Part shown: one piece after another, positions 3,621-29,008 of the stretch
Layout: each line of letters begins with the position of its first letter
How positions within the stretch are numbered: the stretch's first letter is position 1
Source: a virus
Reading direction: 5' to 3' (one strand)
IMG/VR virus record: IMGVR_UViG_3300017967_000081
Span: 1-36,527 of that record
DNA: 36,527 bases
The notes under the pieces: generated by a model
Database searches by the model: none
Told to the model about the DNA's origin: nothing
The model's input: the letters and a program-made list of their open reading frames with translations, nothing else
Made by a program: the position numbers and the translations under genes

Positions 3621-3627
3621 CTAAATA
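3620..3627 (+). promoter_or_regulatory. Late promoter element ACTAAATA, upstream of the first baseplate gene
   Basis: ACTAAATA matches the T4-type late -10 element (TATAAATA) at six of eight positions and ends 22 nt before the ATG at 3650. It shares its first base with the -35 box of the leftward gp55 promoter. It belongs to a set of six similarly placed elements in this window. Confidence 0.65.
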
Positions 3628-3649
3628 ATGTATAAGGAGACAAAAAGAA

Positions 3650-9035: not shown

Positions 9036-9488
9036 ATGAGTACAAGAGAAAAAGGATTATATAAACAAGTAGTTGTTAAGGGAAATAACAAGGCCCAAAA
9101 CACATCACCTGGCAGCAGAGCTTATAGAGGTTTAAGCACTGTAAATCCTGATAACTCCACTTATGTACTCTACGATATTGCACTTATTAAACAAGATATT
9201 ATCAATCATTTCCATATAAGGCAAGGTGAAAAGCTAAGTGATCCTGAGTTTGGAACCATTATATGGGACGTTTTGTTTGAACCTTTAACACCACCTATTC
9301 AAGATGCTATTGTTAATAATGTATCAAAAATATGTAATTACGATCCAAGGGTTCAAGTTAATAATATTACTGTAGATAGTTACGAAAGCGGCATACAAAT
9401 CGAATGTACATTAACATATCTTCCTTATAATATCTCAGAAACTATGCAATTGAAATTCGATGAAAGTGCTGGATTTTTTAATGCATAA
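9036..9488 (+). CDS. 25: Baseplate wedge subunit gp25
   Basis: A 150-residue member of the gp25/GpW family, a conserved wedge component at the sheath-baseplate junction. The hallmark segment runs IKQDIINHFHIRQGEKLSDP (residues 51-70), then EFGTIIWDVLFEPL (71-84), and later VDSYESGIQIECTLTYLP. T4 gp25 is about 132 residues; the extra length is a basic N-terminal tail (1-35). The ribosome site is weak (AAGG at 9020-9023, 12 nt upstream). It is followed by gp6, its usual partner in the wedge. Confidence 0.9.
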   Translation: MSTREKGLYKQVVVKGNNKAQNTSPGSRAYRGLSTVNPDNSTYVLYDIALIKQDIINHFHIRQGEKLSDPEFGTIIWDVLFEPLTPPIQDAIVNNVSKICNYDPRVQVNNITVDSYESGIQIECTLTYLPYNISETMQLKFDESAGFFNA

Positions 9489-12500: not shown

Positions 12501-12958
12501 CACTTAGTGACGAAGTAATATATCATCCGGTTAAGTATAAAATACTATTCGGAGATAAATCATCTGTGGATCTTCAAGCAACATTTAAAATTGTTAAAAA
12601 CCCTGATTTGGTTCTAAATGATAACGATGTTAAGTCGAGAGTTATTGCAGCAATAGATGAATTTTTTGCATTAGAAAATTGGGACTTTGGCGATAAATTT
12701 TATTTCTCAGAATTAAGCAATTATGTAATGAGTCAATTAGCTCCAGATCTTGTAACATTCATTATGGTGCCTGATCAAGAAACCCAATCATTTGGTAGTT
12801 TGTTTGAAATAAAATCAGAATCAGACGAAATTTTTATTAGCGGTGCAACTGTTGATAATATTGAAATTATTGATGCAATTACAGCATCAAGATTAAAAGC
12901 AAGTGGAAAAGTTGTTTCTGAATCAGAAACTACTAACACTGGAATACAAAGTATTTGA
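9545..12958 (+). CDS. 6: Baseplate wedge subunit gp6 (enlarged)
   Basis: A 1137-residue protein with gp6-like ends. N-terminal: YLRENYPEDFNDYVESSEYL (43-62), then IDLIAFLGQNIAFRIDLNAREN and RLARLLSYNPKR, the conserved start of T4-like gp6. TAEDYQIGPLG (about 432) is the central baseplate-J-like segment. The C-terminal part (about 990-1120) has YHPVKYKILFGDKS and a wedge-dimer-like end. T4 gp6 is about 660 residues, so about 450 residues are extra, mostly between 480 and 980. That insert contains a canonical EF-hand-type loop at residues 813-824. In T4, gp6 dimers form the inner ring tying the wedges together. Strong Shine-Dalgarno and its own late element upstream. Confidence 0.88.
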   Translation: MSSTDRQNRLLLAEDWKRVYQSFRNADFQSYDFDNLRRTMINYLRENYPEDFNDYVESSEYLALIDLIAFLGQNIAFRIDLNARENYLELAERRESVLRLARLLSYNPKRNQAANGLLKIESVSTSEDIVDSNNVNLSGQTIIWNDPSNPDWYEQFVKILNAALPANGTFGRPIKKDIVNGVPTDQYRMLSTNTEIPVYGFQKAIDGRSVRFEIVSTDVVDGVIEEEAPFPGNNFAFLYRDDGRGPASSNTGFFSHFRQGTIDEGVFNINNPSTNQVVAIDAVNINNKDVWLYKLDSFGNENELWSKVESVEGNNVIYNSLNKNIRNIYSVLTRVDDRISLIFSDGVFGNLPKGAFRVYYRTSRNETMVANPDDMRGISVNIPYLTKSGKVETLSIQYELKYRVDNASVSETNASIKANAPSTYYTQNRMVTAEDYQIGPLGVSQEIIKAKSVNRTASGISRYFDLIDATGKYSKTNLFGVDGAIYKEYLTPKASFTFVTRTDVEGAIVNTIEPILSDKKVRNYYYDKFPKISVSDLGVKWTQSSTATNLSTGYFTNREGLKSQLGTYTSSILSLIVPGTLVKFLPPEGEYFLPDGTSAPGIQGQKNVTEYRWAKIESVDADGTVVADDGTGPVFLNDIIPSNSRLVEIRPAISYELESDVITQVIDQIFAYKTFGLRFDRNKQAWRLVTENNLNVANDFSIGKTGDVTNQQLDASWLLLFETDGEKYTITYRAMRYIFESDKEIRFYFDSSDKIYNNLTGKIIKDKIKVMSINTIPDDTVPFTVDFDWEVTEEYRDPEGYVDSKKIQVTFFDNDDDGVVDDPEIFAEIVAETTNPLEKYVFQEKYITTDGVEDYNYVSKDDIGVIVLQTKENLAPFSSYDDGQLFYYVDEGIFETLNKTFGTLSVTTNYRARIGRDNLKFQYIHAADYSARIDPSASNIIDTYLLTKTYDTAFRLWLSGQGTKPLPPSTDSLFLSYGTEINKIKSLSDEVIYHPVKYKILFGDKSSVDLQATFKIVKNPDLVLNDNDVKSRVIAAIDEFFALENWDFGDKFYFSELSNYVMSQLAPDLVTFIMVPDQETQSFGSLFEIKSESDEIFISGATVDNIEIIDAITASRLKASGKVVSESETTNTGIQSI
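11981..12016 (+). other. EF-hand-type calcium-binding loop within gp6
   Basis: Codons 813-824 encode DNDDDGVVDDPE. Acidic residues stand at loop positions 1, 3, 5 and 9, Gly at 6, a hydrophobic residue at 8 and Glu at 12, the full 12-residue EF-hand pattern. It is preceded by a beta-like KIQVTFF segment, so it may be a lone calcium-stabilised turn and not a helix-loop-helix pair. Confidence 0.6.
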
Positions 12959-12977: not shown

Positions 12978-15900
12978 ATGGCAAGTAATAATGATCAGAA
13001 CGAATTTCCTGTACCAGCAGCCGGAGGTTCGGATACTAAAAGAACAAGTGCGCAGCACTTGCCGCGTTATTTTAGGACTGAGACAAATAAGAAATTTTTA
13101 TCTAGCACATTAGATCAGTTAATCCAACCTGGCGTCGCAGAAAAACTAAACGGATACTTTGGAAGACAAACTGCAAAATCATTTACAGCAGCTGATAACT
13201 ATGTTGGAGATATTTCAACAAAAAGATCAGATTACCAATTTGAGCCTGCAACTGTAATTAAAGATGACTTAGATAATGTTCTTTTTTACAAAGATTATAA
13301 TGACTTTGTAAATCAATTAACTAGTTTTGGTGCTGATACTTCAGACCACAGTAGATTTAATAGCCAAGAATATTATGCTTGGAACCCGCATATTGATTGG
13401 GATAAATTTACTAACTTCCGTGAATACTATTGGCTTCCAAACGGTCCGCAAACTATACCTGTTAAAGGACAGACGATAGATATTGTATCTACATACACAG
13501 TAGAACTTGCAGACAACTTAGATAATAATGCATATCTTTTTACGCCAGATGGTGCAACACAAAATCCTAGTTTAAAATTGTATAGAGGTATAACATATCG
13601 ATTTGAAATAAACACAGAAGGCCTACCATTTACTATAAGAACCAAGCGCACTCTTGATAGTGCTTTTGATTTAGATTCTGGAATTTCAGCACAAAATGTA
13701 GAACTTGGTGTTATTGAATTAAGATTAACATCAGAAACACCTGACGTACTTTATTATGTTGCAGATAATGATATAAATGTTGCAGGACTAATCAAAGTTG
13801 CAAACATCGAAGAAGCTAGTTTTATTGATGTAGAGACTGAAATAGTAGGTAAAAAAACTTATACAACAAGTGACGGATTTGCTCTTTCTAATGGAATGAA
13901 AGTTAAATTTATAGGAGAAGTAACTCCGGCAACATATGCTGAAGGAGAATTCTACGTTGATGGCGTCGGTGATGAAATTAGATTAATTGCAGAAGCAGAC
14001 TTAAACGTTGCTAGTTCATTTACAGATGACTTATTAATCCCCTTTGACGGAGACGGTTTTGATAGAAGCCCATTTGATGAAGCAATTGGTTATCCTGCTG
14101 TAAAAGATTACTTTGTAATAAACAGAGGCAGTGCTGATGGAAACTTGTGGAGCAGATACAATAGATGGTTCCATAGAAGTGTAATAGAAAAAGCAGCTGA
14201 AATAAATGGGGTTCCGGTAGATGTAGATCAATCGCAAAGAGCAAAACGCCCAATTATAGAGTTTGATGCAGGTATAAAGTTACAAAATTTTGGAACTAAG
14301 ATCAAAAAAGATGTCGATTTAGTTGATACATATACACTTGATGTATTTTCAGATATAGAAGGAAGTCAAGGATATAATATTGATGGTATAGACATTACTG
14401 ACGGTATGCGCATTTTGTTTTTAGCAGATACTGATATATTAGTTAAAGGAAAAATTTACCAAGTTAATTTCATAACATTTGCCGATGGAACTGGTAGAGC
14501 CTCTAATAGACAAATTTCTTTAGTTGAAGTAGATGACTCAGAACCTTTAGAAAATGAAGTTGTACTAGTTAAAGACGGTACAGATTCAAAAGGTTTGATG
14601 TACTACTACAATGGTACAGAATGGAAATTGTGTCAAACTAAAACTAGTGTGAATCAGGCTCCTTTATTTGAAATGTTTGACGAAGCTGGTAACAGCTTTA
14701 ATGACTTAACTATTTTTGAAGCAAGCACATTTAAAGGTAACAAAATTTTTAGTTATGCAGTTGGCGCAGGTCAAAACGATACAGAACTAGGTTTTCCAAT
14801 AACATACAGAAATATTGAAAACGTAGGCGATATAACATTTAACTTTGATTTGTTAAAAGATTCTTTTAACTACCAAGTTGGAAATGATTTATTTTATAAA
14901 AACACTGATATTGGTTATCTCAGGAAATATAAAACTAGAACGCAATTTGCTTACGAAAACGGCTGGAAAAAATCTCCAAAAATTAGCGAACAGGTTGTGA
15001 TTAGGCAGTACGTTAATGATAATACGCTAACAGCATACGACATAGATGTTTATGAAAACAGTGCTAGTTTAACTGATTTATGGTATCGAGTATATTTAAA
15101 CAACAAGTTACAAGTTGAAGGTACAGATTTTACAACTTCAGTTTCGCCTAATAATTTACTACAGATAATTTTTGTAAATGACTTGGCAATTGATGATGTA
15201 ATTTTATTTAAAACAAAGTCAAGAGCTGCAAAAACTGAAATAGGACATTATGAAATAAGTGCAAATCTTGAGCGCAATCCTTTAAACAATAATCTTACGC
15301 AATTTACACTTGGCGAAGTTAATGATCACGTTGCTTCTATAGTAGAAAGTCTTGATAATTTTGTCGGAAAGTTCCCAGGTGCAGGAAACTTAAGAGATGT
15401 AGGTCCTGTAAGCATTTACGGTAAAAGATTTTTAAAACACAGTTCTCCATTTAATTTAGCAAGTTACAGTTTGTTAGACAAAGATAGTAATATGCTAAAG
15501 TCTATAAGATATGCTAGAAGAGAATACGGCAAGTTTAAAAGATTATTTTTACAAACAGCAAATGATTTAGGATATGAAGGTCCTGTCAAAGAACATGTTG
15601 ATAGAATATTAGCTAGTATTAATAAAGATAAAATTAGCAGTATGCCATTTTATTTTAGTGATATGTTTGCAATTGGTGCATCAGTTAGAACAGATTACGA
15701 AATATATGATGAACAACAGCAGTTTTTTGCATTGTCTCAACCTTTTACATTAGACGAACCAAGCAGAAGAGCAGTACAAATATACATAAATGGCTTGCAA
15801 TTAATACATGGCAAGGATTACACTTTTAATAGTGAAGGATTTGCTATTATTACAGCTACTAAAGAAATAGATGATGTTGTTACAATTTATGAATATGAAT

Positions 15901-18900
15901 CAACAAACGGAACATATGTACCGCCTACTCCTACAAAATTAGGATTATATCCTGCTTACGAACCCGTTAAGTATTTGGATGACACATATCTTGAACCTAC
16001 AGAAATTATTCAAGGCCATGACGGAAGTAAATTTGTTGCCTATAACGATTTTAGAGATGATCTTATTCTTGAATTAGAAAAAAGAATTTATAACAACATT
16101 AAAGTAAAGTATGATCCTACTATCTTTGACATTGAATCTTATGTAGGTGGTACTTTTAGAGATACTACATTTACAAAAGAGCAAATAGATAATGCAATGC
16201 TTCCTGATTTTGTTCAGTGGTTACAATTAGTCGATGACGATTATACAGACAATCAGTTTTTTCAAAGGACAAACAGTTTTACATTTAACTATGCATCTAT
16301 GACAGATCCAAATGGTAATGCATTGCCGGGATTTTGGCGCGGAGTTTATAAACAAGCCTTTGATACAGACAGACCTCATACCCATCCATGGGAAATGCTA
16401 GGATTTAAAATTAAACCTACATGGTGGGAAGAACAATATGGTCCTGCTCCTTACACCAAAGATAACATTGTTATGTGGGAAGATTTGCAAAACGGTGTAA
16501 TAAGGATACCGGGACAAAAATTTTCTATTAATAAGAAATACAAAAGACCTGGATTAGTTAATTTTATCCCTGTTGATGAATCAGGAAACTTATTAAGTCC
16601 GAATGATTGTGGATATGCAGGAAACTTTGTTTCTAGTACTATTAAGGATATTTTTAAATACGGTGACGAAGCACCAGTTGAATCTGCCTGGAGACGAAGC
16701 GGAGAGTTTCCTTTTGCACTAATTGCTAGTTGGTTACTAAATCAGCCACATAAAGTATTTGCAACAGGCTTTGATAGAATTAGACAGAAAAAAAATCTTG
16801 CCGGGCAAATAATTTATACTGAAACAAACAATCATATTAGATTACAAGATTTAGTTTTTCCTAACACTGTAGAAGATACCGCTCAAATATTTACAGCTGG
16901 GTTGATAAATTACGTTGCAGGATATATGGCAGCAAGTGTTACAAGACCATACGGAACTTATAAAGACCATATAGTTGCGATTACTAACCAAATGGGCTTT
17001 AAAGTTGGTGGTTTCACTGAAAAGAATAAATTTAGACTAATTTTAGATAGTAGAACACCTCTAAATCAAGGTAATGTTTTTGTTCCAGATGAAAACTATA
17101 AAATTTTCCTAAATACAAGTTCTCCTGTAGAAACACTTTCTTATAGTGGCGTATTGATTGAGCGTAGAACTAACGGATTTAAAATTAGCGGTTATGATAA
17201 TACAAAACCTTATTTTGATTACTATAAACCAATTGCCTTAGAAAATGATCCTACAATTAATGTAGGTGGTATTACAGAAAAGTATGTTACCTGGGGACCA
17301 GGCCAAACTTATGTTAAAGGTCAAAATATCGAAAATGCCGGGGCATATTATAGAGCAAAAAATAATTTTACAAGTGGGGCAAGTTTTGATACAGATAATG
17401 TAGAAAGAATGCCGTCTTTACCTTTAATAGGAGGTAGAGATGCTACTTTTAGAAGAACATTTTTTACAAAAATAACTGAAAAAATGCCGTACGGAACAGT
17501 TTTAAAAACTGTGCAAGAAGTAGTAGATTTCTTATTAGGATATCAAAAGTTTTTAGAAACAAAAGGATTTGTGTTTGATTATTATGACAGTGATAATGCA
17601 GTTGTAGCAAATTGGAGAACATCTTGTAAAGAATTCCTTTTCTGGACCACACAAAACTGGGCAGCAGGTACAGTAATTACATTAAGTCCAGCAGCGTTCC
17701 AGTTGAAGTTACAAACAGAATATTCTATTGTTGATAATATATTTGACAACTTTTATGGTTATACGCTATTAAAAGCTGACGGTAAAAAGTTAGTAGAAGA
17801 ATTTACAACATTAGGCAGACAAAATAGTAATGAATTTGTTCTACGTCCAAAAACTACCGCAGACGGTATTTACAGTCTAAAACTACCGTTAGTACAAAAA
17901 GAACATGTAGTATTACTTGACAACAGAACTGTGTTTGGAGATGTGATCTTTGACCCAGAACCTGGATATAGACAAGAGCGCATAAAGATATTAGGTTATA
18001 GAACCACTGATTGGGACGGAAGTCTAAATATACCAGGATTTGTTTATGACGATGCAAAAGTTACAGATTGGGAATCTTGGAAAGACTATTCAATAGGTGA
18101 CACTGTTAAGTATAAAGAATTTTATTATACTGCAACAAATAAAATACCGGGTACAGAAACATTTGAGTCAGAAGATTGGAACAGACTTGACGAAAAACCT
18201 AGTCCTGTATTGTTACCTAACTTTGAATATAAAACTAATCAATTTGCAGATTTCTATGATTTAGATAGTGATAACTTTGACACAGAGCAACAGCGTCTTG
18301 CACAGCATTTAATTGGATATCAAAAGCGCACATATTTAGAAAATATTATTAATGATGACGTTAGCCAGTATAAATTCTATCAAGGATTCATCGCTGACAA
18401 AGGTTCAAAGAATGCTTTGACTAAATTGTTTGATGCACTAGCAAGTGACGACAAAGATAGTTTAGAATTCTATGAAGAATGGGCAATTAAACAAGGCCAA
18501 TATGGTGCATCAGAAGGTTTTGACGAAGTTGAATTTTTATTAGACGAAAAACAATTTAGACTAGCACCACAACCTATCGAATTAGTACAACGAGTGCAGG
18601 GTGACGAAAAGGATTTAATTTATAGAATACAACCTTACCAGGTTTATTTAAAACCTGAAAACTACGATCATAAACCGTTTCCTAGCAAATATATTACAAA
18701 CGGTTATACAAAAGATAGTGGTTATGTAAATCCGGAAGATGTAGATTTTATTGTTGGAACATATGATGATATTTTAACAATTAATTTTGCAGATTGTAGG
18801 AAAGATTCCTACATATGGGTAGGTAACGATAAGCAAACATGGAATGTATATCGTCATATAGATACTGATTTAGAAGTTGAAGCTGTAACTGGAGGCGATA

Positions 18901-21900
18901 CTGAATTTACAGTTGTTCTTACAACTACACCTAAGTTTATAAATCCTGGAGATATTTTAGGAGTCTTTGATTTAATTAACACAACTGTTGATCCTGCTGA
19001 TAGCACTTATGCTGCAATTAGTACAACATCTGTTGCGTTAGGAGGATTCTACAAAGTTAAAAATATTTCTTTGAATAGGATTACTTTTGAAACCTCAGAG
19101 CCTGTAGAAGATGTAGAAAATTGTGTTGGAAAAATAACCAATCTGTTAAAGGTAAGAACAGACAACTTAGAAACTCTCAACAGCCTGACACAAATTATAG
19201 CAGACAACAAGAGTAAGTTCTGGTTAGATAATGATGGTAACAGCAAATGGAAAGTAGTACAAAATTCATCAGGATTTAATCTATTACAAAGTTTTGCCAA
19301 TTCATCTACAGATACAGAAACAAACTTTGCTACTAGTATAGCTGTGAATAACAGCAATACACTTATGGCTGTAGGAGCACCAGATGATGGTAGCGGAAAG
19401 GTTTATGTTTATAGACGAGGAAGCAACAATGCTAATTGGCAGTTAAGTCAAGTACTTGAAGCTGATGATGACATTGCAGATGAATTACAGAGATTTGGTG
19501 CAAGCGTAGGTATGTCACCAGATGGAAAATACTTGATTGTAGGTTCTCCGGATGCAAGTAATGTCAAAACGAATTATAAATCAACTTATAGCGAATATGG
19601 GCCAGACGGAGACGAAATAACTCCAACTAATTATGTTGCTAATGATATTGTAAGATATGAAAATGCTCTTTGGAGATCTACTACTACAATCCAACCTAGA
19701 GTTGATAGTATTGAATTTACAAGTTTTGACAGTGTTGAACAAATTATAAATTCTATAGGAAATACTGCTGAAGACTCAGAAGAAATTCCTGTAATTTTAG
19801 CAGGCAATTATCCTATTCCAAATATAGATGCTGATCATATTTTGATTAGAGCTCCTTTAGATATGTATGATGGTTCTGCTCCTAACGACACATTGGTATT
19901 AGAATGGAATACGCTTACTATTGCAAATCAAAATCAAGAGTCTTTTGTTGCAAGAGAACCATTTGATGGAGCTTACCCTAATATAAGTGAATTCTTTTTA
20001 AGTGATAACCACACAATACAAAATAAAGTAGATGCAGTTTTATATGTTAATGTTTTCACTACTAAACCTGTATTTGGTGACAGAGTTGAAACTGCTGATG
20101 CATTTGGTTTTGTAGATTATGTGTATGAAAACGAAGGACAATTAGTTCTATACTTAAGAGATGTAAATGGTATATTTGACTTAAATGACAGCTTGTTCTT
20201 GGCTAACGGAGAATTTGTCGGAGAATATGATAGAGTTGCACCAAACGAAGAAGTTGATTCCTCAGAAGCGTTCGGCGGCTATTGGAGAATTAATCTAAAT
20301 TCTCCGGTATCTTTAACTACAAATTTAACAGATAGTGGTAGAGGATTAATTTACAAAGATGTTGTATCAGACAGTACAGTAAGTGATAGGTATTATTACA
20401 ATATTCTTGATTATGATACTGACTTAACATCTAGTGAAAATACCTTAAACAGTTATTTTAGAATACTATCGTTCCAAGGTTTCCCAGGACCTGGCGGTTC
20501 TGTAGATCCTGTACTAAGTCAAAAATATGTAATACGTGCTCCTAAAGTTTTAACAGATACTTTATCGCCTGGATCAACATTTGATTTTTATATGCCACAG
20601 CTTACTAGATTTAGTGACGGGTCTAAAAACGATCCGACACTTGTAAATCTTTCTTATGAAGTAATAAACAAAACACTTACTGTTGATGAACTATGGGACG
20701 GCTACATATTCTTCGAATTTACAAAATTCGATACAGACGGAGATCCATTCGAACCAAGAGTAGGACAAACAGTACGAGATGTAACTACTGGCGCAGAAGC
20801 AGTAGTAGAATATTATCAAAGAGACGGCCTAAATGTAACACTATTTGTTTCAGGTGTAACCGGCAACTGGTCACAAGGTGATGATTATGGTGATAATGCT
20901 GAGATTGAATTCCTAGGAGATGCAACAGATCCAGATCCAATTTATCAAGTTAATCGTGTTATGGGTCAAACACAATACAGATCCTTAGGATTAGATGCAG
21001 CAGGAATTGGAAAACTTATAGTTGTTGATGCTGGCGTTGCAATTACAAACCCAGATTTTGATGCAGGTGAAACAGACAGACTAGTAGATGTAGAATATTG
21101 GTTCTTCAACGAAAACACTGTTGCTGGTATTGCTAGAGAAGCAAATATTCCTTCAGTTGATAACAACGATTGGGAAGAAATATTTTCTTTAATTACAAGC
21201 TCAACAGGCGAGCCCAGTGGAAAAACAAAGGAGGGTATGTACTCTGTTTATGCAACAGGTAAATCAACAACATTTAGTAAAGTAAATTCATATACTATTC
21301 CAGAACGTGATGATAATCTAAGATTAGGGTATGAAGTACAAGCAACCAAATATAATGATTTATACAGGGGATTTATATCCGCAGGAGGATCCGAACGAGA
21401 TACTAGCGAAGTATTCCCAGGAAGAATTTATTTTATTAAATCTGGTACAGATACAGACGGCACAGTTTGGAATTGGGATTATGCTAAAGACAAAAAATTT
21501 AAAGGAGAATTTAGTACTTTAGTTAATTACTACTTAGATGATATAGTTTATAATGATGGTTTAGTTTATCAAGCTGATACTAATATAGCAGCAGGTACCG
21601 GATTTGTTTTATCTGATTGGAATTTAATAGAAGATCCGTTAGATTACTTAGGATATGTTCCTAACGACACATCATTAATTCCTAGTTTTGGCGAAGTTGA
21701 TATTAGTTCTATTTTAGATCAAGGCAGCTTATATCATATAGGATCTATTTTTGACACATCGGACAACGGTGAAGTTTTAATTACATCAGCACTTTATGAA
21801 AATGACAAACCAAATCTAGTAGTTGTTTATAGATCATATAATGGCAACTATCAACGTAGCCAGCAAATTGCAGCACCTAGTAATACAATCGGATTTGGTA

Positions 21901-24900
21901 AAGATATTGCAATCAGTAATGATGGCATGCTAATTGCTATTTCAGCACCATACGATGATGATGTAAGAAACGACCAAGGTAAAGTTTTTATCTATAAGCA
22001 AGTTAATGGAATATTTGAATTAACACAAACTCTTAATTCTAGACAGAACGAAAAACAAGAGTTTTTTGGACACCAGGTACAATTTGACGGAACTACTCTA
22101 GTTGTATCTGCAAGAAGTGCAGATGGAGAATTAAGTACTACATTTGACGGAAATGAAACTGTACTAGATGCAGGCTTTACACAATTTAAGAAAGTTTTTG
22201 TAGATAGTGGCGTTGTTTATCTTTATGAAAGGATAAATGACACATTGGTTTATGGACAAACACTAGATTTTGATGATTCATCAACTAAAAACTTTGGCGA
22301 TTATATCTTAGCAAAAGATAACCACATATATGTAGGCATGCCAGGTTTATACACAACAGAATCTAATCAAGGCACTTTAATAGATTATAGAAAAGTACAA
22401 GGTACAAATATTTACAACGAATTAAGAGTACCAAAAGATACTGTAGATGTTTCTAAAATTAAAAGAATGTTCTTGTACGATACTAAGAAACAAGAGCTTT
22501 TAACTTACCTTGATTATATTGATCCTATACAAGGAAAAATTGCAGGACCAGCAGAACAAGAACTTAGATATAAGACATACTATGATCCAGCAGTTTTTAG
22601 TACTGGCCCTGAAAACTTAAAAGTAGATACATACCGAAACTGGGGCGAGGAACAAATAGGTCAGTTATGGTGGGATTTAACAAATGCAAAATTCTTAAAT
22701 CCTTATCAAGGAAATATTATTTTTAGCACAAATAATTGGAATAAATTATTTGTAGGAAATAGTATAGACGTTTATGAATGGGTAGAAAGCGATGTGCTAC
22801 CTAGTGAATGGGACGAAATAGCTGATACCGAAGAAGGAATAGCAGAAGGAATAAGCGGACAATCAAGATATGGCGACAGCGCATATGTTGAAAAAAGACG
22901 TTATGATAGTATTTCACAATCCTTTACTAACAAATATTATTTCTGGGTCAAAGGAAAAGTAACTGTTCCTGACATAGAATCTAGATCTATGAGTTCTGCA
23001 TTGGTTGCAAAATTAATAGAAGATCCTGCTAGCCAGGGATATAAGTTTGTTAATTTAATAAGTGAAAACAGCTTCGTAATTTATAACTGTGATAATCTTA
23101 TTAAAGGTGACGATGTTGCACTAAGCATACAGTATTGGACAATAGATGATCAGAATATTAATATTCACAATCAATATCAAATTTTAACAGAAGGATTAGA
23201 GTCTAGTGTTCCAAGCAGAGACATCGAGCGTAAATGGTTTGACAGTCTTATAGGTAAAGATGACGCCGGACGTCCAGTTCCAGCCGAAGACTTATCACCT
23301 AAAGAAAAATATGGTATTCTAAATAAACCAAGACAGGGTTGGTTTGTTAATAATGCCGAGGCTCTAAAACAGGTTATAACAAGAGTTAATAGAGTTTTAA
23401 AAGAAAACTTAATTATAGATGATAAAGATATAACAGCCTTGCAAAAAGCAGCCCCTGCTCCAGTAGCATCAACTAGAATATATGACACTGCTGTAGATAG
23501 TTTAGCTGATTTAGAATTTGTAGGTGTTGCTAAAGCTGAACAAGCAGTAATTACACCTGTAATAACAGACGGTAAAATTACTAGGGTCACTATAGATAGT
23601 CCGGGACGCGGCTATCTAGTTGTTCCTACAATTACTATTGAAGGCCAAGGAAGTGGTGCAGAAATAGAATTAGAAATTAATTCAGTTGGAGCTGTAGTTA
23701 ATGCAACAGTAGTTAATCAAGGTAACAACTATACAAGTAATACTAGGATTACAATTCGAAGATTTGCTGTCTTAGTTAATAGTGATGAAACAATACAAGG
23801 CAAATGGGCGTTGTATGAAAGAATTTCTGAAACTAGACAATGGAGTAGGATTGAGAGCCAGGCATATGATGTATCTCTATACTGGGATTATATAGATTGG
23901 TACGATACTGGATACAGTGAATTTACAGAAGTAAATTATTTGATTGACAATAGTTATGAGTTGCTTTCTCTAGATGATACAACTGGTGATATTGTTAAAA
24001 TTAAAACGATTGGAACCGGTGGATGGCTATTATTAGAAAAAATAGACGATGCTGATAATATTGACTATACTGTAAATTATAAAACTATTGGTAGAGAAAA
24101 CGGAACTATACAGTTTAAAAACACATTGTATGATACTACTGCAAATGCTGTGGGCTTTGATACTGTAAGTTATGATATTAAATTCTTTGATAGCCAGCCT
24201 ACTACAGAAATGCGTATAATTTTAGAAGCAATTAGAGATGATTTACTTGTAGATGAATTGGCAATCGAATATAATGCATTGTTCTTTAGCAGTTTAAGAT
24301 ATGTACTTTCAGAACAAAACTATGTTGATTGGGCATTTAAGACAAGTTTTGTTAAAGCAAAACACAACGTGGGTACGCTACGTGAAGATATTACATTTAA
24401 TAATGATAACCTACCAAGTTATGAAGAATATCTAAATGAAGTAAAACCATACAAAACAAAACTTAGAGAGTATCTAAGTAGCTACGAAGGACTAGACAAT
24501 AGTTCTAGTGTAATAACTGATTTTGATTTGCCACCTGCTTATAGTAACAGATACGGAAAAATTATTCCTCAATCTGTAAAAGTTGTCGATGGTACGTTGA
24601 TAGGCGAAAATACAGATCTCCAAACTTATCCTAATAAAAATTGGTTAGATAACTTTGGTTATGGAATTGCATCAATTGATGTTGCCGACGGAGGAAAAGG
24701 ATATACATTCCCTCCTGTTATTGAAATCACAGGCGGCGGCGGCTCTGGTGCTGAAGCAATAGCATTTTTAGGAAATGAAGGAAAAATTTCTTATGTAAAA
24801 ATAGTTAAACCAGGTAGCGGATATTTAAGCCAGCCAACAGTTACTATAAACGGGTCATTAGCTGAAGACGGCGAGCCTGCTACATTAAGTGCAAAACTTG

Positions 24901-27900
24901 GTGATGGTCTTGTAAGAAGTATGAATACTTCTATTAAGTTTGATAGAATAACAGGTGTCTTTGAGATTACAAAACTATTAGAAACAGAATCTTTTGCTGG
25001 AACAGGAAACAAATACGTTTATAACTTAAGATATCCTATGGAACTTAATATCTCTAATATAGAAGTATTTGTAAATAATAACCTAGCACTGCGTAGTGAA
25101 TTTACATATTCTAACCAAAAAGATACAAGCAAAGGATATGATAGATATTACGGTCAAATAGTATTTACTACACCTCCTATTGATGGAGCAAGTATAGTAA
25201 TCAACTATAAAAAGCCTGTCGAATTATTACATGCAGCAGACAGAGTAAATTTATTCTATAACCCAACTACCGGTCAGTTTGGTAACGACCTTGGTCAAGT
25301 AATGGACGGAATAGATTACGGTGGTGTTGAAGTAAAAAGTTTTGAATTTGGAGGACCAGCTGGTTGGGATAGCCAAGATTGGTATTCAGATTCTTGGGAT
25401 ACATACGATGTAAGTTATGAAGATTTATTATTCCAAACAAAGCGTGTAGATATTACATTACCTTCAAACGTTATAGTATCTGAGAACACAACTGTTGTGC
25501 AAGAAAATACTACAGCGTCCGGCCGTGTAGTTGCAGATAGTTCAGGTAATGTTGTTACAGTTGAATCTCCGTTTAACCAAGAGTTTGATACTGTAAATAA
25601 TTTAAGAAAATATGTTACATTAAAAGTTCCTCCTACTGATCTTCCAATATCAACAGGAACTGTTCTAGTACAAGAAGGAACAAATGCACAAGGCCGTGCA
25701 ATACAAAACAATCTAGGAACACAAGTAATAGTAGAAACTGATATTACTTCTCAGTTCTCTGCTTCAGAAGATTTTACATATTATACAGATAGTACAGATA
25801 TAGGAGGTAGTAACCCTATTATTCCTACAGATATAACTGACTATCTAAAATTGGATGAAGCATTAGAAACTGGATTACAGTATAATGTATATAAAGTTGC
25901 ATATGATATTGACGGTAAAGAACTAAAAAATGTAAGAATTGATGATCCAAACTACGGAACAGGAGATCCTGTTACTAATGCAAATGCAGTTATGCAAAGT
26001 ATTACTGGGGATGGCACGAGTCTAATTCTACCGTTTGATTCTTGGGGAGTATCTACTTCAGCAAATGATGAAATTATTATAAGAAAATCTACTAGCGACG
26101 GGTCATTTATTGCAGATCCAGAGAGCTACGATACCCAATACCAAGGTGGTAATTTAGCATATACAAGTGCAACTGGTTTAAATGCAGAAGATATAAATGT
26201 TGATGGTGACGGATTTGTAACACCGACAACATCTAAAGGTCCAGAAGAAGTTATACCAGGGCAACTTTTAGATACTGTTGATATAACAGTGTATGAACGC
26301 CCAGTTGCAGGTGGCTCGAAAATTTATTCAAGAAATTATGTAGGTGACGGAGTTACAACAACGTTTAAGATTGATCAAAGACCTCAAACACAAAGTCAAA
26401 TAATTGTTAAACTTGACACAAGTATTAAAAACGTAGATGAAGATTTTACTGTAGATTACGATAACGAAACTGTAGTTTTTGATACAGCACCTACAGCAGG
26501 ACAGCGTGTAAGTATTATTAATATTGAAATTGGTGGTAGTGATATACTAGATGTTCAATCTTTTGAAAGTGACGGTAGTACAAACACTATTGTAACTGAT
26601 GTCCGTTATAGCGAAAACGTCAATTTTATTGTTTCGTCAAACGGTATAGAAATACCCAGTGTTATTAGAGAATCTACAGAAGAAGATGGCATTGCAGGAA
26701 ACATACTGCTAGATATGTCAGAGCCTGTGAAGGTAGGAGACTTTGTAAGCTATGCCCTTTACAAAGGACAATCAATTACTGATCAAAACTTTAGTCAAGT
26801 TACTATAGATACGTTTGACGGCGACGGCAGTACTGTAGCATTTGAACTAAGTAAAGCTCCTTTCTCTCAAGAACCTAGTGCATATTATACTATAGTTAGG
26901 ATAAATGATTATATATTAAATGCAGGATATACTAAGCGTTTTACTGTAACAAGTAATAATCAGTATATCTTAGATATATGGCAAACTCCTGTAGGTACAT
27001 TAAACAATCAAGATGTAGAAGTTTATCTAAACGGACGCAAATTAACATTTAACGATGAATGGACATTTATAGGCGGTGCAGCGTTTGAGCCTGATTTACC
27101 ACCAGATGAGCAAAAAGGTAGCATCATTCAAATATCACCAGGTGTATCAACAGCAGGAGATGATTTGCGTATATATGTTATCTCTGACGGTGAGTACAGA
27201 TTTGGATATTATGAAACAGCTGACGATTCGTCTAACTCTTTTGTATCTACACCTGGCACAGTTTATTTAGATCAGGTAGCTGAAGAAGGAGATGTTATCA
27301 CAGTTTATCAATTTAGTAATAATGCTCCTTTAGAGATGGAAAGATTAAGTTATGATATTGTTGAAAGAACAAAACTAACTCAAAGTACTGAAGCATGGTA
27401 TAAACTAAGACAACTTAGAAACGGTTTAATTGGTTTAGCGTCACCTGCTACTGACTCTAAATATGTTTGGGTAATAAAAAACAATGCATTACTAACACCT
27501 GATTCTGATTATACAGTTTTAGACAATAAGCGTTACATACGATTAGTTGAAACACTAGAAGAAGATGATACTATAGAAGTCATACACTTTGCAGCAGCGC
27601 CATACCAGAACAAGTTTGGCTGGAGGCAATTTAAAGATATGATTAATAGAACTCATTATAAGCGCCTAGACGGTGAGAAAAATTATGTTCTTAAAGAAGA
27701 CCTAAATTGGTATGACAGAACTATAGTACTAAATGATGCTGCTGTTGATCTGCCAGCACCGCCTCCAGGAACACGAACTCCTGGAATTATCTGGATAAAT
27801 GGAGAACGTATTGAATACTACATTAAGTCAGGTAATGAACTAAAGCAATTAAGAAGAGGCACGCTAGGAACAGGTGTTTCATCGATACATGTTGCTGGAA

Positions 27901-28370
27901 CAGAAATATACGATCAAAGCAGTGATAGTAATTTGCCATACAAAGACGAAACACTCACAACAATATTTACAGCAGACGGTACAACTAGTGTATATGAACT
28001 AGATTTCAATGTAGATGATTTTACATTTATTAAAAATTCTAGACCGCAAGACTTGTTTGAAGTGTTTGTTGCTGGTAAAAGACTAAGAAAAGACCCTGTA
28101 CAATCTTATAGATTTGAATATACAGATACAAACGGTGATATAATATCTCCAATTGCACAGGACAGCCCAGAAGGAGATATTACATTACCAGCAGAATTTA
28201 CAGTAGAAGGCAATATACTGACACTGGTAGATACTCCTATTGAAAATTCTAAAGTAATTATTATTAGAAAACAAGGAAAACGTTGGACAGACCCAGGAAC
28301 ACCACTAAGTAATGCTGATACAGACATTGGCAGATTCTTACGTGCCAAGCAAGTGGACTTACCGCGATAA
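12978..28370 (+). CDS. Giant multimodular virion structural protein (5130 residues), gp7-position
   Basis: One uninterrupted 15.4-kb frame following gp6, where T4 has gp7 (about 1032 residues); equivalence to gp7 is only positional. Shine-Dalgarno AAGGAAG at 12962-12968, no late element of its own. Modules by rough residue: 30-155 conserved N-terminal head (RYFRTETNKKFL, YYAWNPHIDWDKF); 195-280 cupredoxin-like; 998-1045 QGHDGSKFVAYNDFRDDL; 1078-1218 Trp/His-rich core with HTHPWEMLG (1134); CBM5/12-like modules near 1436, 1697 and 2844, plus one apparently split between 2222 and 2735; 2115-3145 seven FG-GAP-like propeller blades with insertions; 3528-3592 and 3895-3960 GxGYxxxPxVxI repeats; 3770-3853 VDWAFKTSFVKAKHNV; 4166-4260 and 4455-5090 further repeats. 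No signal peptide, membrane segment or lysozyme/peptidase motif was noticed. Likely a baseplate or tail appendage scaffold. Relatives seem to occur in marine T4-like phages, but function is unknown to me. Confidence 0.85.
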   Translation: MASNNDQNEFPVPAAGGSDTKRTSAQHLPRYFRTETNKKFLSSTLDQLIQPGVAEKLNGYFGRQTAKSFTAADNYVGDISTKRSDYQFEPATVIKDDLDNVLFYKDYNDFVNQLTSFGADTSDHSRFNSQEYYAWNPHIDWDKFTNFREYYWLPNGPQTIPVKGQTIDIVSTYTVELADNLDNNAYLFTPDGATQNPSLKLYRGITYRFEINTEGLPFTIRTKRTLDSAFDLDSGISAQNVELGVIELRLTSETPDVLYYVADNDINVAGLIKVANIEEASFIDVETEIVGKKTYTTSDGFALSNGMKVKFIGEVTPATYAEGEFYVDGVGDEIRLIAEADLNVASSFTDDLLIPFDGDGFDRSPFDEAIGYPAVKDYFVINRGSADGNLWSRYNRWFHRSVIEKAAEINGVPVDVDQSQRAKRPIIEFDAGIKLQNFGTKIKKDVDLVDTYTLDVFSDIEGSQGYNIDGIDITDGMRILFLADTDILVKGKIYQVNFITFADGTGRASNRQISLVEVDDSEPLENEVVLVKDGTDSKGLMYYYNGTEWKLCQTKTSVNQAPLFEMFDEAGNSFNDLTIFEASTFKGNKIFSYAVGAGQNDTELGFPITYRNIENVGDITFNFDLLKDSFNYQVGNDLFYKNTDIGYLRKYKTRTQFAYENGWKKSPKISEQVVIRQYVNDNTLTAYDIDVYENSASLTDLWYRVYLNNKLQVEGTDFTTSVSPNNLLQIIFVNDLAIDDVILFKTKSRAAKTEIGHYEISANLERNPLNNNLTQFTLGEVNDHVASIVESLDNFVGKFPGAGNLRDVGPVSIYGKRFLKHSSPFNLASYSLLDKDSNMLKSIRYARREYGKFKRLFLQTANDLGYEGPVKEHVDRILASINKDKISSMPFYFSDMFAIGASVRTDYEIYDEQQQFFALSQPFTLDEPSRRAVQIYINGLQLIHGKDYTFNSEGFAIITATKEIDDVVTIYEYESTNGTYVPPTPTKLGLYPAYEPVKYLDDTYLEPTEIIQGHDGSKFVAYNDFRDDLILELEKRIYNNIKVKYDPTIFDIESYVGGTFRDTTFTKEQIDNAMLPDFVQWLQLVDDDYTDNQFFQRTNSFTFNYASMTDPNGNALPGFWRGVYKQAFDTDRPHTHPWEMLGFKIKPTWWEEQYGPAPYTKDNIVMWEDLQNGVIRIPGQKFSINKKYKRPGLVNFIPVDESGNLLSPNDCGYAGNFVSSTIKDIFKYGDEAPVESAWRRSGEFPFALIASWLLNQPHKVFATGFDRIRQKKNLAGQIIYTETNNHIRLQDLVFPNTVEDTAQIFTAGLINYVAGYMAASVTRPYGTYKDHIVAITNQMGFKVGGFTEKNKFRLILDSRTPLNQGNVFVPDENYKIFLNTSSPVETLSYSGVLIERRTNGFKISGYDNTKPYFDYYKPIALENDPTINVGGITEKYVTWGPGQTYVKGQNIENAGAYYRAKNNFTSGASFDTDNVERMPSLPLIGGRDATFRRTFFTKITEKMPYGTVLKTVQEVVDFLLGYQKFLETKGFVFDYYDSDNAVVANWRTSCKEFLFWTTQNWAAGTVITLSPAAFQLKLQTEYSIVDNIFDNFYGYTLLKADGKKLVEEFTTLGRQNSNEFVLRPKTTADGIYSLKLPLVQKEHVVLLDNRTVFGDVIFDPEPGYRQERIKILGYRTTDWDGSLNIPGFVYDDAKVTDWESWKDYSIGDTVKYKEFYYTATNKIPGTETFESEDWNRLDEKPSPVLLPNFEYKTNQFADFYDLDSDNFDTEQQRLAQHLIGYQKRTYLENIINDDVSQYKFYQGFIADKGSKNALTKLFDALASDDKDSLEFYEEWAIKQGQYGASEGFDEVEFLLDEKQFRLAPQPIELVQRVQGDEKDLIYRIQPYQVYLKPENYDHKPFPSKYITNGYTKDSGYVNPEDVDFIVGTYDDILTINFADCRKDSYIWVGNDKQTWNVYRHIDTDLEVEAVTGGDTEFTVVLTTTPKFINPGDILGVFDLINTTVDPADSTYAAISTTSVALGGFYKVKNISLNRITFETSEPVEDVENCVGKITNLLKVRTDNLETLNSLTQIIADNKSKFWLDNDGNSKWKVVQNSSGFNLLQSFANSSTDTETNFATSIAVNNSNTLMAVGAPDDGSGKVYVYRRGSNNANWQLSQVLEADDDIADELQRFGASVGMSPDGKYLIVGSPDASNVKTNYKSTYSEYGPDGDEITPTNYVANDIVRYENALWRSTTTIQPRVDSIEFTSFDSVEQIINSIGNTAEDSEEIPVILAGNYPIPNIDADHILIRAPLDMYDGSAPNDTLVLEWNTLTIANQNQESFVAREPFDGAYPNISEFFLSDNHTIQNKVDAVLYVNVFTTKPVFGDRVETADAFGFVDYVYENEGQLVLYLRDVNGIFDLNDSLFLANGEFVGEYDRVAPNEEVDSSEAFGGYWRINLNSPVSLTTNLTDSGRGLIYKDVVSDSTVSDRYYYNILDYDTDLTSSENTLNSYFRILSFQGFPGPGGSVDPVLSQKYVIRAPKVLTDTLSPGSTFDFYMPQLTRFSDGSKNDPTLVNLSYEVINKTLTVDELWDGYIFFEFTKFDTDGDPFEPRVGQTVRDVTTGAEAVVEYYQRDGLNVTLFVSGVTGNWSQGDDYGDNAEIEFLGDATDPDPIYQVNRVMGQTQYRSLGLDAAGIGKLIVVDAGVAITNPDFDAGETDRLVDVEYWFFNENTVAGIAREANIPSVDNNDWEEIFSLITSSTGEPSGKTKEGMYSVYATGKSTTFSKVNSYTIPERDDNLRLGYEVQATKYNDLYRGFISAGGSERDTSEVFPGRIYFIKSGTDTDGTVWNWDYAKDKKFKGEFSTLVNYYLDDIVYNDGLVYQADTNIAAGTGFVLSDWNLIEDPLDYLGYVPNDTSLIPSFGEVDISSILDQGSLYHIGSIFDTSDNGEVLITSALYENDKPNLVVVYRSYNGNYQRSQQIAAPSNTIGFGKDIAISNDGMLIAISAPYDDDVRNDQGKVFIYKQVNGIFELTQTLNSRQNEKQEFFGHQVQFDGTTLVVSARSADGELSTTFDGNETVLDAGFTQFKKVFVDSGVVYLYERINDTLVYGQTLDFDDSSTKNFGDYILAKDNHIYVGMPGLYTTESNQGTLIDYRKVQGTNIYNELRVPKDTVDVSKIKRMFLYDTKKQELLTYLDYIDPIQGKIAGPAEQELRYKTYYDPAVFSTGPENLKVDTYRNWGEEQIGQLWWDLTNAKFLNPYQGNIIFSTNNWNKLFVGNSIDVYEWVESDVLPSEWDEIADTEEGIAEGISGQSRYGDSAYVEKRRYDSISQSFTNKYYFWVKGKVTVPDIESRSMSSALVAKLIEDPASQGYKFVNLISENSFVIYNCDNLIKGDDVALSIQYWTIDDQNINIHNQYQILTEGLESSVPSRDIERKWFDSLIGKDDAGRPVPAEDLSPKEKYGILNKPRQGWFVNNAEALKQVITRVNRVLKENLIIDDKDITALQKAAPAPVASTRIYDTAVDSLADLEFVGVAKAEQAVITPVITDGKITRVTIDSPGRGYLVVPTITIEGQGSGAEIELEINSVGAVVNATVVNQGNNYTSNTRITIRRFAVLVNSDETIQGKWALYERISETRQWSRIESQAYDVSLYWDYIDWYDTGYSEFTEVNYLIDNSYELLSLDDTTGDIVKIKTIGTGGWLLLEKIDDADNIDYTVNYKTIGRENGTIQFKNTLYDTTANAVGFDTVSYDIKFFDSQPTTEMRIILEAIRDDLLVDELAIEYNALFFSSLRYVLSEQNYVDWAFKTSFVKAKHNVGTLREDITFNNDNLPSYEEYLNEVKPYKTKLREYLSSYEGLDNSSSVITDFDLPPAYSNRYGKIIPQSVKVVDGTLIGENTDLQTYPNKNWLDNFGYGIASIDVADGGKGYTFPPVIEITGGGGSGAEAIAFLGNEGKISYVKIVKPGSGYLSQPTVTINGSLAEDGEPATLSAKLGDGLVRSMNTSIKFDRITGVFEITKLLETESFAGTGNKYVYNLRYPMELNISNIEVFVNNNLALRSEFTYSNQKDTSKGYDRYYGQIVFTTPPIDGASIVINYKKPVELLHAADRVNLFYNPTTGQFGNDLGQVMDGIDYGGVEVKSFEFGGPAGWDSQDWYSDSWDTYDVSYEDLLFQTKRVDITLPSNVIVSENTTVVQENTTASGRVVADSSGNVVTVESPFNQEFDTVNNLRKYVTLKVPPTDLPISTGTVLVQEGTNAQGRAIQNNLGTQVIVETDITSQFSASEDFTYYTDSTDIGGSNPIIPTDITDYLKLDEALETGLQYNVYKVAYDIDGKELKNVRIDDPNYGTGDPVTNANAVMQSITGDGTSLILPFDSWGVSTSANDEIIIRKSTSDGSFIADPESYDTQYQGGNLAYTSATGLNAEDINVDGDGFVTPTTSKGPEEVIPGQLLDTVDITVYERPVAGGSKIYSRNYVGDGVTTTFKIDQRPQTQSQIIVKLDTSIKNVDEDFTVDYDNETVVFDTAPTAGQRVSIINIEIGGSDILDVQSFESDGSTNTIVTDVRYSENVNFIVSSNGIEIPSVIRESTEEDGIAGNILLDMSEPVKVGDFVSYALYKGQSITDQNFSQVTIDTFDGDGSTVAFELSKAPFSQEPSAYYTIVRINDYILNAGYTKRFTVTSNNQYILDIWQTPVGTLNNQDVEVYLNGRKLTFNDEWTFIGGAAFEPDLPPDEQKGSIIQISPGVSTAGDDLRIYVISDGEYRFGYYETADDSSNSFVSTPGTVYLDQVAEEGDVITVYQFSNNAPLEMERLSYDIVERTKLTQSTEAWYKLRQLRNGLIGLASPATDSKYVWVIKNNALLTPDSDYTVLDNKRYIRLVETLEEDDTIEVIHFAAAPYQNKFGWRQFKDMINRTHYKRLDGEKNYVLKEDLNWYDRTIVLNDAAVDLPAPPPGTRTPGIIWINGERIEYYIKSGNELKQLRRGTLGTGVSSIHVAGTEIYDQSSDSNLPYKDETLTTIFTADGTTSVYELDFNVDDFTFIKNSRPQDLFEVFVAGKRLRKDPVQSYRFEYTDTNGDIISPIAQDSPEGDITLPAEFTVEGNILTLVDTPIENSKVIIIRKQGKRWTDPGTPLSNADTDIGRFLRAKQVDLPR
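13560..13810 (+). other. Cupredoxin-like module in the giant protein
   Basis: Residues about 195-278: LKLYRGITYRFEIN, then GLPFTIRT and LYYVADNDINVAGLIKV. The order resembles the LxRGxTYxFxxN...GHPFxI...YYxCxxHxxMxGxIxV pattern of cupredoxin-like domains. The usual Cys and His/Met ligand positions appear to be Val, Asn and Asn/Val here, so copper binding is unlikely. Fold call is by pattern only. Confidence 0.4.
17283..17430 (+). other. CBM5/12-like module 1 in the giant protein
   Basis: Residues about 1436-1485 follow the pattern WxxGQxYxxGxxIxxxGxYYxAxxxFTSGxxF. This resembles the short aromatic-rich carbohydrate-binding modules (CBM5/12, chitin-binding type 3) often embedded in phage fibres. 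It is less regular than the copies at 1697 and 2844. Confidence 0.35.
18066..18195 (+). other. CBM5/12-like module 2 in the giant protein
   Basis: Residues 1697-1740: DWESWKDYSIGDTVKYKEFY, then a YTATN strand and a loop ending SEDWNRL. The spacing W-x3-DYSIGDxVxYxxxxYxA-x(16)-W is the standard layout of CBM5/12-type modules, including the GDxV turn and the final Trp. Confidence 0.5.
19641..21182 (+). other. Apparently split CBM5/12-like module with about 480-residue insert
   Basis: The first half is at residues 2222-2238 (NDIVRYENALWRSTTTI), the second at 2722-2735 (ANIPSVDNNDWEEI). Joined, the halves give the same spacing from the GDxV-like turn to the final Trp as the intact copies at 1697 and 2844. 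The material between (about 2239-2721) includes two segments with a GDxV...GxVxxY...LYLRDVxGxF-type pattern (about 2365-2420 and 2590-2650). Splitting is inferred, not proven. Confidence 0.4.
21507..21635 (+). other. CBM5/12-like module 3 in the giant protein
   Basis: Residues 2844-2887: EFSTLVNYYLDDIVYNDGLV, then YQADTNIAAG and a closing SDWNLIED. Same layout as the module at 1697. It sits between propeller blades C and D. Confidence 0.5.
23560..24860 (+). repeat. Two GxGYxxxPxVxI repeat modules in the giant protein
   Basis: Copy 1 (residues about 3528-3592): SPGRGYLVVPTITIEGQGSG, then a second GNNYTSNTRITI strand. Copy 2 (about 3895-3960): GKGYTFPPVIEITGGGGSGA, then GSGYLSQPTVTING. Each copy has two GYxxxPxVxI strands separated by a Gly/Ala-rich turn. 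Such modules recur in phage tail proteins and adhesins. They flank the conserved segment at 3770-3853. Confidence 0.55.
25474..25760 (+). repeat. Tandem VxExTxAxGR modules in the giant protein
   Basis: Copy 1 at residues about 4166-4205 (ENTTVVQENTTASGRVV, then GNVVTVES) and copy 2 at about 4225-4260 (GTVLVQEGTNAQGRAI, then GTQVIVETD) are internal duplicates of about 40 residues with moderate identity. DNA-level identity is low, so this is not a recent duplication. Confidence 0.55.
26341..28100 (+). repeat. GDGSTxxF beta-modules at the C-terminus of the giant protein
   Basis: At least four units start with a [FY]xxDGxTxxF motif: residues 4455 (YVGDGVTTTFKI), 4528 (FESDGSTNTIV), 4612 (FDGDGSTVAFEL) and 4996 (FTADGTTSVYEL). 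Each is followed by a strand naming a 'chain position' such as VYLNGRKL or VFVAGKRL, and usually by an IxFxxAPxxGxxVxI-type strand. This is the layout of the beta-domains found in T7-type tail-fibre N-termini and many marine phage fibres. Conserved PGIIWINGERIEYY precedes the last unit. Confidence 0.55.
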
Positions 28371-28393: not shown

Positions 28394-29008
28394 ATGGCAG
28401 ATAATTTTAACGAAATGAACGGTGTGTTGCTACAAGGTCATATTAAGATACATGATCCAGCCTCTGGTGAAGTACTTATTGACAAAAGAAACGCTATTCA
28501 TTATGAAAATATGAGTATAAGTTTAGCTGAAAGTTTAGCAAACGCTGGACAAGGTTGGATTTACGAAATGAGTTTTGGAAATGGTGGAACTTCAGTAGAT
28601 CCTACAGGTATTATTACATACTTAACACCAAACAGCACTGGTACAAACGCCAGTTTATACAACCAAACATTTACAAAAGTTGTTGATGACAGAAGTGTTA
28701 ATAACTTAGATCCTGTAAGAAACAAAATAGAAACACGCCATGTTAGTGGAACAAATTATACAGATATACTTGTAACATGTTTGCTAGACTACGGTGAGCC
28801 AAGCGGGCAAGATGCGTTTGATACTGCCACAGATTCAGATAGCCTTTATGTTTTTGACGAGCTTGGACTTAAAGCATATAGTCCTTCCGGAGATGGTAGA
28901 TTGCTAACACACGTAATTTTCCACCCTGTACAGAAATCGTTAAACAGATTAATCCAAATTGATTACACTGTTAGGGTACAGAGTTTAACAGGTTTCAATG
29001 AGGGGTAA
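28394..29008 (+). CDS. Conserved virion structural protein, baseplate/fibre junction
   Basis: A 204-residue protein with no enzymatic motif. Recognisable blocks: GVLLQGHIKIHDPASGEVLI (residues 10-29), NAIHYENMSISLAESLAN, SFGNGGTSVDPTGIITYLTP, and a C-terminal LNRLIQIDYTVRVQSL strand pair. I associate this pattern with small structural proteins preceding tail-fibre genes in marine T4-like phages, but I cannot name a T4 counterpart. It starts the post-giant transcription unit behind its own late element and lies 4 nt before the first fibre gene, so a role linking fibres to the baseplate is plausible. That role is inference. Confidence 0.6.
   Translation: MADNFNEMNGVLLQGHIKIHDPASGEVLIDKRNAIHYENMSISLAESLANAGQGWIYEMSFGNGGTSVDPTGIITYLTPNSTGTNASLYNQTFTKVVDDRSVNNLDPVRNKIETRHVSGTNYTDILVTCLLDYGEPSGQDAFDTATDSDSLYVFDELGLKAYSPSGDGRLLTHVIFHPVQKSLNRLIQIDYTVRVQSLTGFNEG

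Follow-up and report, generated by a model that had tools for sequence, protein, structure and literature searches.

An uncultured phage, whose 36,527-base viral record we refer to as the window, encodes a single protein of 5,130 residues directly after the baseplate wedge protein gp6, and this giant is probably a baseplate-wedge scaffold that replaces gp7 (gpI in P2-like phages) beside gp6 and carries an enlarged arm. Several lines of evidence argue for this reading: the gene order, which puts the giant in the gp7 slot, the detection of its homologues in virions by mass spectrometry (MS), the lack of gp8 in 14 giant-family records, the constant core lengths, a KG motif in the slice that best matches gp7, the cyanophage precedent, purifying selection and a split propeller. 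Against it stand the homology to gp7, which is not firm, the SCTP-2 giant, which lies apart from gp6, and a ClpA-like gene in Rak2-like phages. In the proposed arrangement, the core blocks of constant length would form the wedge core together with gp6, probably in six copies per baseplate, and mobile beta modules (CBM5/12-like, glycine-rich, propeller) would extend this core outward as an arm that may support or position fibres. What this analysis adds is a side-by-side view of core and optional parts, a propeller in two pieces and a motif that hints at gp7.

Gene order, relatives and virion evidence

The giant frame has an ATG start, 5,130 codons and one terminal stop, and takes up 15,393 of the 36,527 bases (42.1%), with 324 stops on the reverse strand beneath it. 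It adjoins gp6, in a + strand order of gp53-like protein, 828-aa structural protein, gp5 hub, PAAR, gp25, gp6, giant, 204-aa protein and collar/fibre-like genes. Both the unbroken frame of about 42% of the window and its placement between gp6 and the fibre genes, as described in the initial annotation, were thus borne out, with the 204-aa gene intervening on the 3' side.

9036–9488, + strand: gp25-like wedge protein (profile match)
9545–12958, + strand: gp6 baseplate wedge protein, the upstream partner (PHROG 10646, E = 2e-296)
12978–28370, + strand: probable giant baseplate protein, 5,130 aa (open reading frame, PHROG 10938, dN/dS)
28394–29008, + strand: 204-aa protein (PHROG 11259)
29013–31049, + strand: collar-domain fibre gene (Pfam Collar, E = 3e-15)

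The window contains no tRNA genes or Rfam matches, and the giant frame no tandem DNA repeats. Complete homologous frames of 3,326–5,276 aa are present in independent contigs and isolates, so the frame is not an assembly artefact. Nor is it due to chance, because nine pairs of homologues gave dN/dS values of 0.03 to 0.39 in all blocks that could be measured, indicating purifying selection throughout. In two contig copies (L038, L071) the frame ends early close to the contig end, probably through errors. Three consecutive fibre-like proteins (29013–31049, 31049–32974 and 33013–34533) share, as judged by eye, a similar N-terminal stretch of ~90 residues (GRNYKGFGEYINENFIGLLENFA...GQLWFDTS), which suggests duplicated anchor domains; the C-terminus of the third matches Peptidase_G2 (E = 2e-6), an autoproteolytic intramolecular chaperone domain.

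As the initial annotation had supposed, similar giants exist in related phages: relatives are encoded by 395 stretches of viral contigs, and tblastn retrieved Rak2-like phages, CBB, PA5oct, Atu_ph07, Phosso, SCTP-2 and a Vibrio phage at ~24–29% identity. The PHROG 10938 profile ('virion structural protein') matches the giant in several stretches along the chain, with E = 0 over residues 1–4200 in four stretches, E = 1.6e-157 for residues 1–1200 and E = 4e-69 from residue 3201 onward. Like the giant, the PHROG 10938 proteins of Rak2-like phages, CBB, 121Q, PA5oct, Atu_ph07, SCTP-2 and Phosso have a homologous core along the chain and usually follow gp6. For PA5oct, the homologue gp355 is marked ESI-MS/MS in its record (virion mass spectrometry). 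CBB_236, which we checked as the giant homologue in the CBB genome, yielded 21 unique peptides from virions by MS (PMC5259590), and phAPEC6 gp245 (382 kDa), called a homologue by position and mass, yielded 17 virion peptides and adjoins the wedge protein gp244 (PMC7247149). The published accounts of CBB and phAPEC6 do not state the homologue's place in the particle. Through these MS-detected homologues, the sequence comparison supports the giant as a structural protein of a conserved virion-protein family, in agreement with its first description as a giant structural protein. The accompanying statement that no function had been assigned was too strong: in PHROG 10938 and in the public records the protein is named as structural in the virion, and cyanophage giants are annotated gp7. 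No characterised protein matched the giant strongly over its full length, the relatives being detected in virions and functionally uncharacterised.

The extreme length, modularity and mosaic architecture would also suit a polyprotein that is cleaved after synthesis into several virion proteins. We consider this highly improbable, as the public records keep one protein of the virion, the distribution of the core over the whole chain speaks against independent products, and Pfam found no protease domain in the chain. With a peptide coverage of the isolate homologues (CBB, phAPEC6) of about 7.7%, cleavage keeps a small probability.

Comparison of the T4 order 5-PAAR-6-7-8-9-10 with the window order 5-PAAR-25-6-giant places the giant in the gp7 slot, and it lies, like T4 gp7 and P2 gpI proteins, after gp6/gpJ and ahead of the fibre genes. 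The giant is also directly 3' of gp6 in PA5oct, CBB, 121Q, XbC2, Phosso, RaK2 and the Vibrio phage, with SCTP-2 as an exception in which gp6 is ~90 kb away. PA5oct, SCTP-2, Atu_ph07, Phosso and the Vibrio phage likewise have a gene for ~200 aa after the giant.

Three neighbourhoods show further particularities. In SCTP-2, a 3,096-aa frame (L003, 6630–15920) lies immediately 5' of the giant; it reaches only E = 0.08 against the giant and has no match to the window's gp6 or gp25. In Rak2-like phages (L084, L085, L087, L089), an opposite-strand gene for a ClpA-like ATPase follows the giant and replaces the 200-aa and fibre genes. The gp6-like protein of the Vibrio phage (L086, 7995–11858) is annotated with a CBM5/12 module of its own.

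Constant core blocks and optional modules

Alignment of the homologues separated the giant into two kinds of parts. Blocks 1–160, 374–1430, 1501–1950, 3151–3500 and 3621–3890 have nearly the same length (within a few residues) in the homologues from uncultured phages and are largely kept in those from jumbo phages, whereas the other parts of the giant vary. The Rak2-like forms, at ~3,330 aa versus 5,130 aa, miss residues 1951–3150 almost wholly and thus have no propeller or insert there, while the Atu_ph07 and Phosso homologues have a region of comparable length that aligns weakly. This map of constant core and optional modules likely distinguishes wedge from accessory parts, and it gives a testable prediction for the PA5oct, CBB, 121Q and RaK2 isolates.

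12978–13457, + strand: conserved N-terminal core block, residues 1–160 (139–169 aa in all aligned complete homologues; invariant columns)
13515–13853, + strand: optional module, residues 180–292 (match to PHROG 677; tblastn matches to tail-fibre proteins of cyanophages)
14097–17267, + strand: conserved core, residues 374–1430 (near-constant length; also in jumbo-phage homologues; AF2 model of residues 1000–1960)
17271–17426, + strand: CBM5/12-like module (chitin-binding type 3 fold), residues 1432–1483 (fold match; repeated module at 1432–1485)
17478–18827, + strand: conserved core, residues 1501–1950 (homologue alignment)
18045–18215, + strand: second CBM5/12-like module, residues 1690–1746 (repeat profile)
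19584–19727, + strand: third CBM5/12-like module, residues 2203–2250, at the insert start (Pfam CBM_5_12, E = 5e-4, below the cut-off)
21483–21644, + strand: fourth CBM5/12-like module, residues 2836–2889, near the insert end (repeat profile)
22428–23477, + strand: conserved core, residues 3151–3500 (homologue alignment)
23565–23765, + strand: glycine-rich GGxGYxxPPxVxI module, residues 3530–3596 (repeat; matches to PHROG 460, 708 and 1922)
23838–24647, + strand: conserved core, residues 3621–3890 (homologue alignment)
24654–24887, + strand: second glycine-rich module, residues 3893–3970 (repeat and PHROG matches)
26325–26567, + strand: module with weak similarity to the N-terminal domain of the T7 fibre (PF03906), residues 4450–4530 (Pfam E = 0.003, below the cut-off)

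The first CBM5/12-like module adopts the CBM5/12 fold in the AF2 model (Z = 7.0, 1.2 Å over 45 aa; VIA), and it was the only part to match in the fold search with residues 1000–1960. Copies 2–4 were called by profile only, some with weak scores. The same fold is present in the tail structures of Agrobacterium phages Milano and 7-7-1, in phage baseplate and fibre proteins. With a CBM score below the Pfam cut-off, sugar binding, the type given to several modules in the initial annotation, is a putative and unproven function of the giant's modules, and so is receptor binding. The module at residues 4450–4530 has a weak repeat at residues 4611–4720. The module at residues 180–292, missing in the Rak2-like forms, has relatives among the modules of tail-fibre and connector proteins from cyanophages; that it has a cupredoxin-like fold is something we only infer.

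This N-terminal region also bears on a further reading, in which the giant unites, as one fused chain, the roles of several T4 wedge proteins (gp7 together with gp8, gp9 or gp10, plus connectors). A family scan detected gp8 in T4 and P-SSM2 but not in any of the 14 giant-family records, the window frames scanned gave no gp9/gp10 match, and the gp9/gp10-related PHROG 677 matches giant residues 173–275. However, PHROG 677 is composite, such that the giant matches profile positions 306–409 and T4 gp9/gp10 share positions 3–112, and one of these functions might fall to the 204-aa protein encoded downstream. A fusion of this kind, which sequence alone cannot demonstrate, strikes us as improbable.

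A predicted seven-bladed propeller split by a large insert

Between the core blocks ending at residue 1950 and starting at residue 3151 lies the part of the chain that the Rak2-like forms miss almost wholly. The AF2 model of residues 2030–3160 has a mean pLDDT of 89.3, and both ends of this slice match one and the same seven-bladed propeller, that of integrin alpha-M (Z = 29.6, 3.0 Å, 355 aa), with the Gbeta WD40 propellers matching almost as well (Z = 27.9).

19215–19589, + strand: propeller part 1, 10 strands, residues 2080–2204 (AF2, fold match, strand count, repeats)
19590–21692, + strand: all-beta insert of ~700 residues, residues 2205–2905 (43 strands)
21693–22427, + strand: propeller part 2, 18 strands, residues 2906–3150 (AF2, fold match, strand count, repeats; Pfam FG-GAP_2, E = 1e-8)

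In the predicted model, the 28 strands outside the insert (10 before, 18 after) amount to seven four-stranded blades. We therefore confidently predict one closed seven-bladed propeller that is interrupted by an all-beta insert of ~700 residues, an unusual case of a large insert gained or lost inside a closed fold. A search of the viral fold library returned numerous FG-GAP propeller proteins from phages and giant viruses, with no good alignment over the whole slice among them. The many beta-modules, propeller type included, that had been noted from the sequence are hence matched by a predicted propeller and by modules of CBM5/12 fold.

Insert length is bimodal, with ~660–800 aa in 30 complete homologues and 17–239 aa in 15, and on the core tree, whose deep branches are unsure, it changed by gain or loss at least three times. 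Because the insert comes and goes among related phages, it should be an accessory part of the arm that is not generally needed for assembly. Its dN/dS of 0.10–0.32 argues against fast receptor adaptation.

These features are relevant to the possibility that the giant is a host-recognition appendage, namely a long baseplate-anchored adhesin outside the wedge core, whose propeller insert and CBM-like modules bind a receptor. The predicted propeller fold, the CBM5/12-like modules, the variability of the insert and the nearby fibre genes would all agree with such a role. We nevertheless regard it as unlikely, since even the insert shows no sign of the fast evolution that usually marks receptor binders, the core blocks are constant in length and conserved across very distant phages, and the gene sits in a wedge-protein position, with the fibre genes separate. 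The initial annotation had offered 'a long appendage or an enlarged wedge arm'; owing to core blocks of constant length and a gene position like that of gp7, the enlarged wedge arm fits better than the long appendage.

The propeller of integrin alpha subunits resembles that of the giant in having seven blades and, in alpha-I integrins, a large domain inserted within the propeller. The giant's insert is all-beta, in contrast to the alpha/beta I domain of alpha-I integrins, and on reading its blades we saw no DxDxDG calcium loops, unlike in integrin. The predicted resemblance is one of shared fold, not of kinship. It is conceivable, if distinctly unlikely, that an exchangeable recognition domain sits in the propeller of a wedge protein, convergent with alpha-I integrins, and that the wedge itself could sense host contact. 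In that case, contact would be sensed directly by the wedge, and fibres would no longer be the sole route.

Comparison with gp7 and with the cyanophage giants

Returning to the wedge scaffold as the preferred reading, we compared the giant with gp7 itself. A gp7-core profile of 47 filtered sequences, drawn from T4-like phages, cyanophages and a pelagiphage, was aligned by HHalign with 100 giant-family slices, 50 forward and 50 reversed. The best of the 100 slices was window residues 1776–1825 (P = 0.0013, HHalign probability 18.5%), followed by the next distinct slice at P = 0.018, and the top ten contained no reversed slice.

18303–18452, + strand: gp7-signature-like helix region, residues 1776–1825, with FIADKGSKNALTKLFDAL at 1804–1821 (best gp7-core profile slice)

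The aligned motif reads FYxSKGxxxSxxxLFKxL in gp7 and FIxDKGTxNSLxKLFDxL in the giant, and in 39 homologues F, G, K and G of this region are invariant, including the K and G of the motif. The match lies below the normal threshold and is suggestive of a gp7 signature. As the motif had been looked for first, membership in the gp7 family is not claimed. The KG motif ranked first only once cyanophages had joined the gp7-core profile; with full-length T4-like gp7 (7 sequences), HHalign gave nothing above noise in any slice. Tail_P2_I (PF09684) had no match in the window at E ≤10, such that neither a gp7 nor a Tail_P2_I profile match reached significance (HHalign probability at most 18.5%). PDB sequence searches with the giant and three slice profiles returned no relevant match, and Pfam recognised no real family in core residues 1490–1960. 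In the AF2 model of residues 1000–1960, the helices around the KG motif have low pLDDT as a monomer, as would befit a region that takes up its fold together with partners, and gp7 chains were absent among the fold matches listed.

T4 gp7 (1,032 aa; PDB 5hx2, 5iv5) shares its gene position and, suggestively, its signature motif with the giant, but it is five times shorter and has no significant profile or structure match to it. The relation is not firm, and on this sequence evidence we do not file the giant as a proven T4 gp7 family member. A wedge protein of the T4 gp7/P2 gpI kind would be expected to form a 2:1 complex with gp6.

For pelagimyophages, VrlC has been reported to substitute for gp7 (PMC7029224). 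We dropped VrlC as a gp7 replacement here: in Pelagibacter phage Mosig (L132, 17488–20112 and 24237–30374), the frame after gp6 bears the gp7 signature and VrlC is encoded elsewhere, by a gene of its own, an arrangement at odds with that report.

A parallel comes from cyanophages, in which giants of the gp7 slot carry the annotation gp7 or baseplate wedge initiator. P-SSM2 gene 7, annotated gp7, encodes 5,195 aa between gp6 and gp8, and the proteins in this slot measure 4,067 aa in Bellamy, ~6,180 in S-SM1, ~6,619 in S-SZBM1 and ~7,312 in P-SSM4. T4-GC 969, which includes the S-SM1 giant, was found experimentally as a virion protein (PMC3037559). The giant is indeed several times the size of T4 gp7, as first described, yet with cyanophage gp7 proteins of 4,067–7,312 aa its size is not unique, and a giant in the gp7 slot is of a known kind. 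The window giant and P-SSM2 gp7 show no significant similarity over their full length and have no more than modules in common, the best blastp match (E = 0.013) covering 46 aa of one module. The gp7 signature lies near residue 200 or 700 in the cyanophage proteins and near 1804 in the window giant, and a gp8 gene follows the giant gp7 of P-SSM2, whereas gp8 was not found in the window family (14 records). The cyanophage giants nonetheless resemble the window giant in their slot after gp6, their size range and their mosaic of beta modules, glycine-rich ones included, and gp7-slot giants thus occur in at least two sequence families, that of the cyanophages and that of the Rak2/PA5oct/uncultured group.
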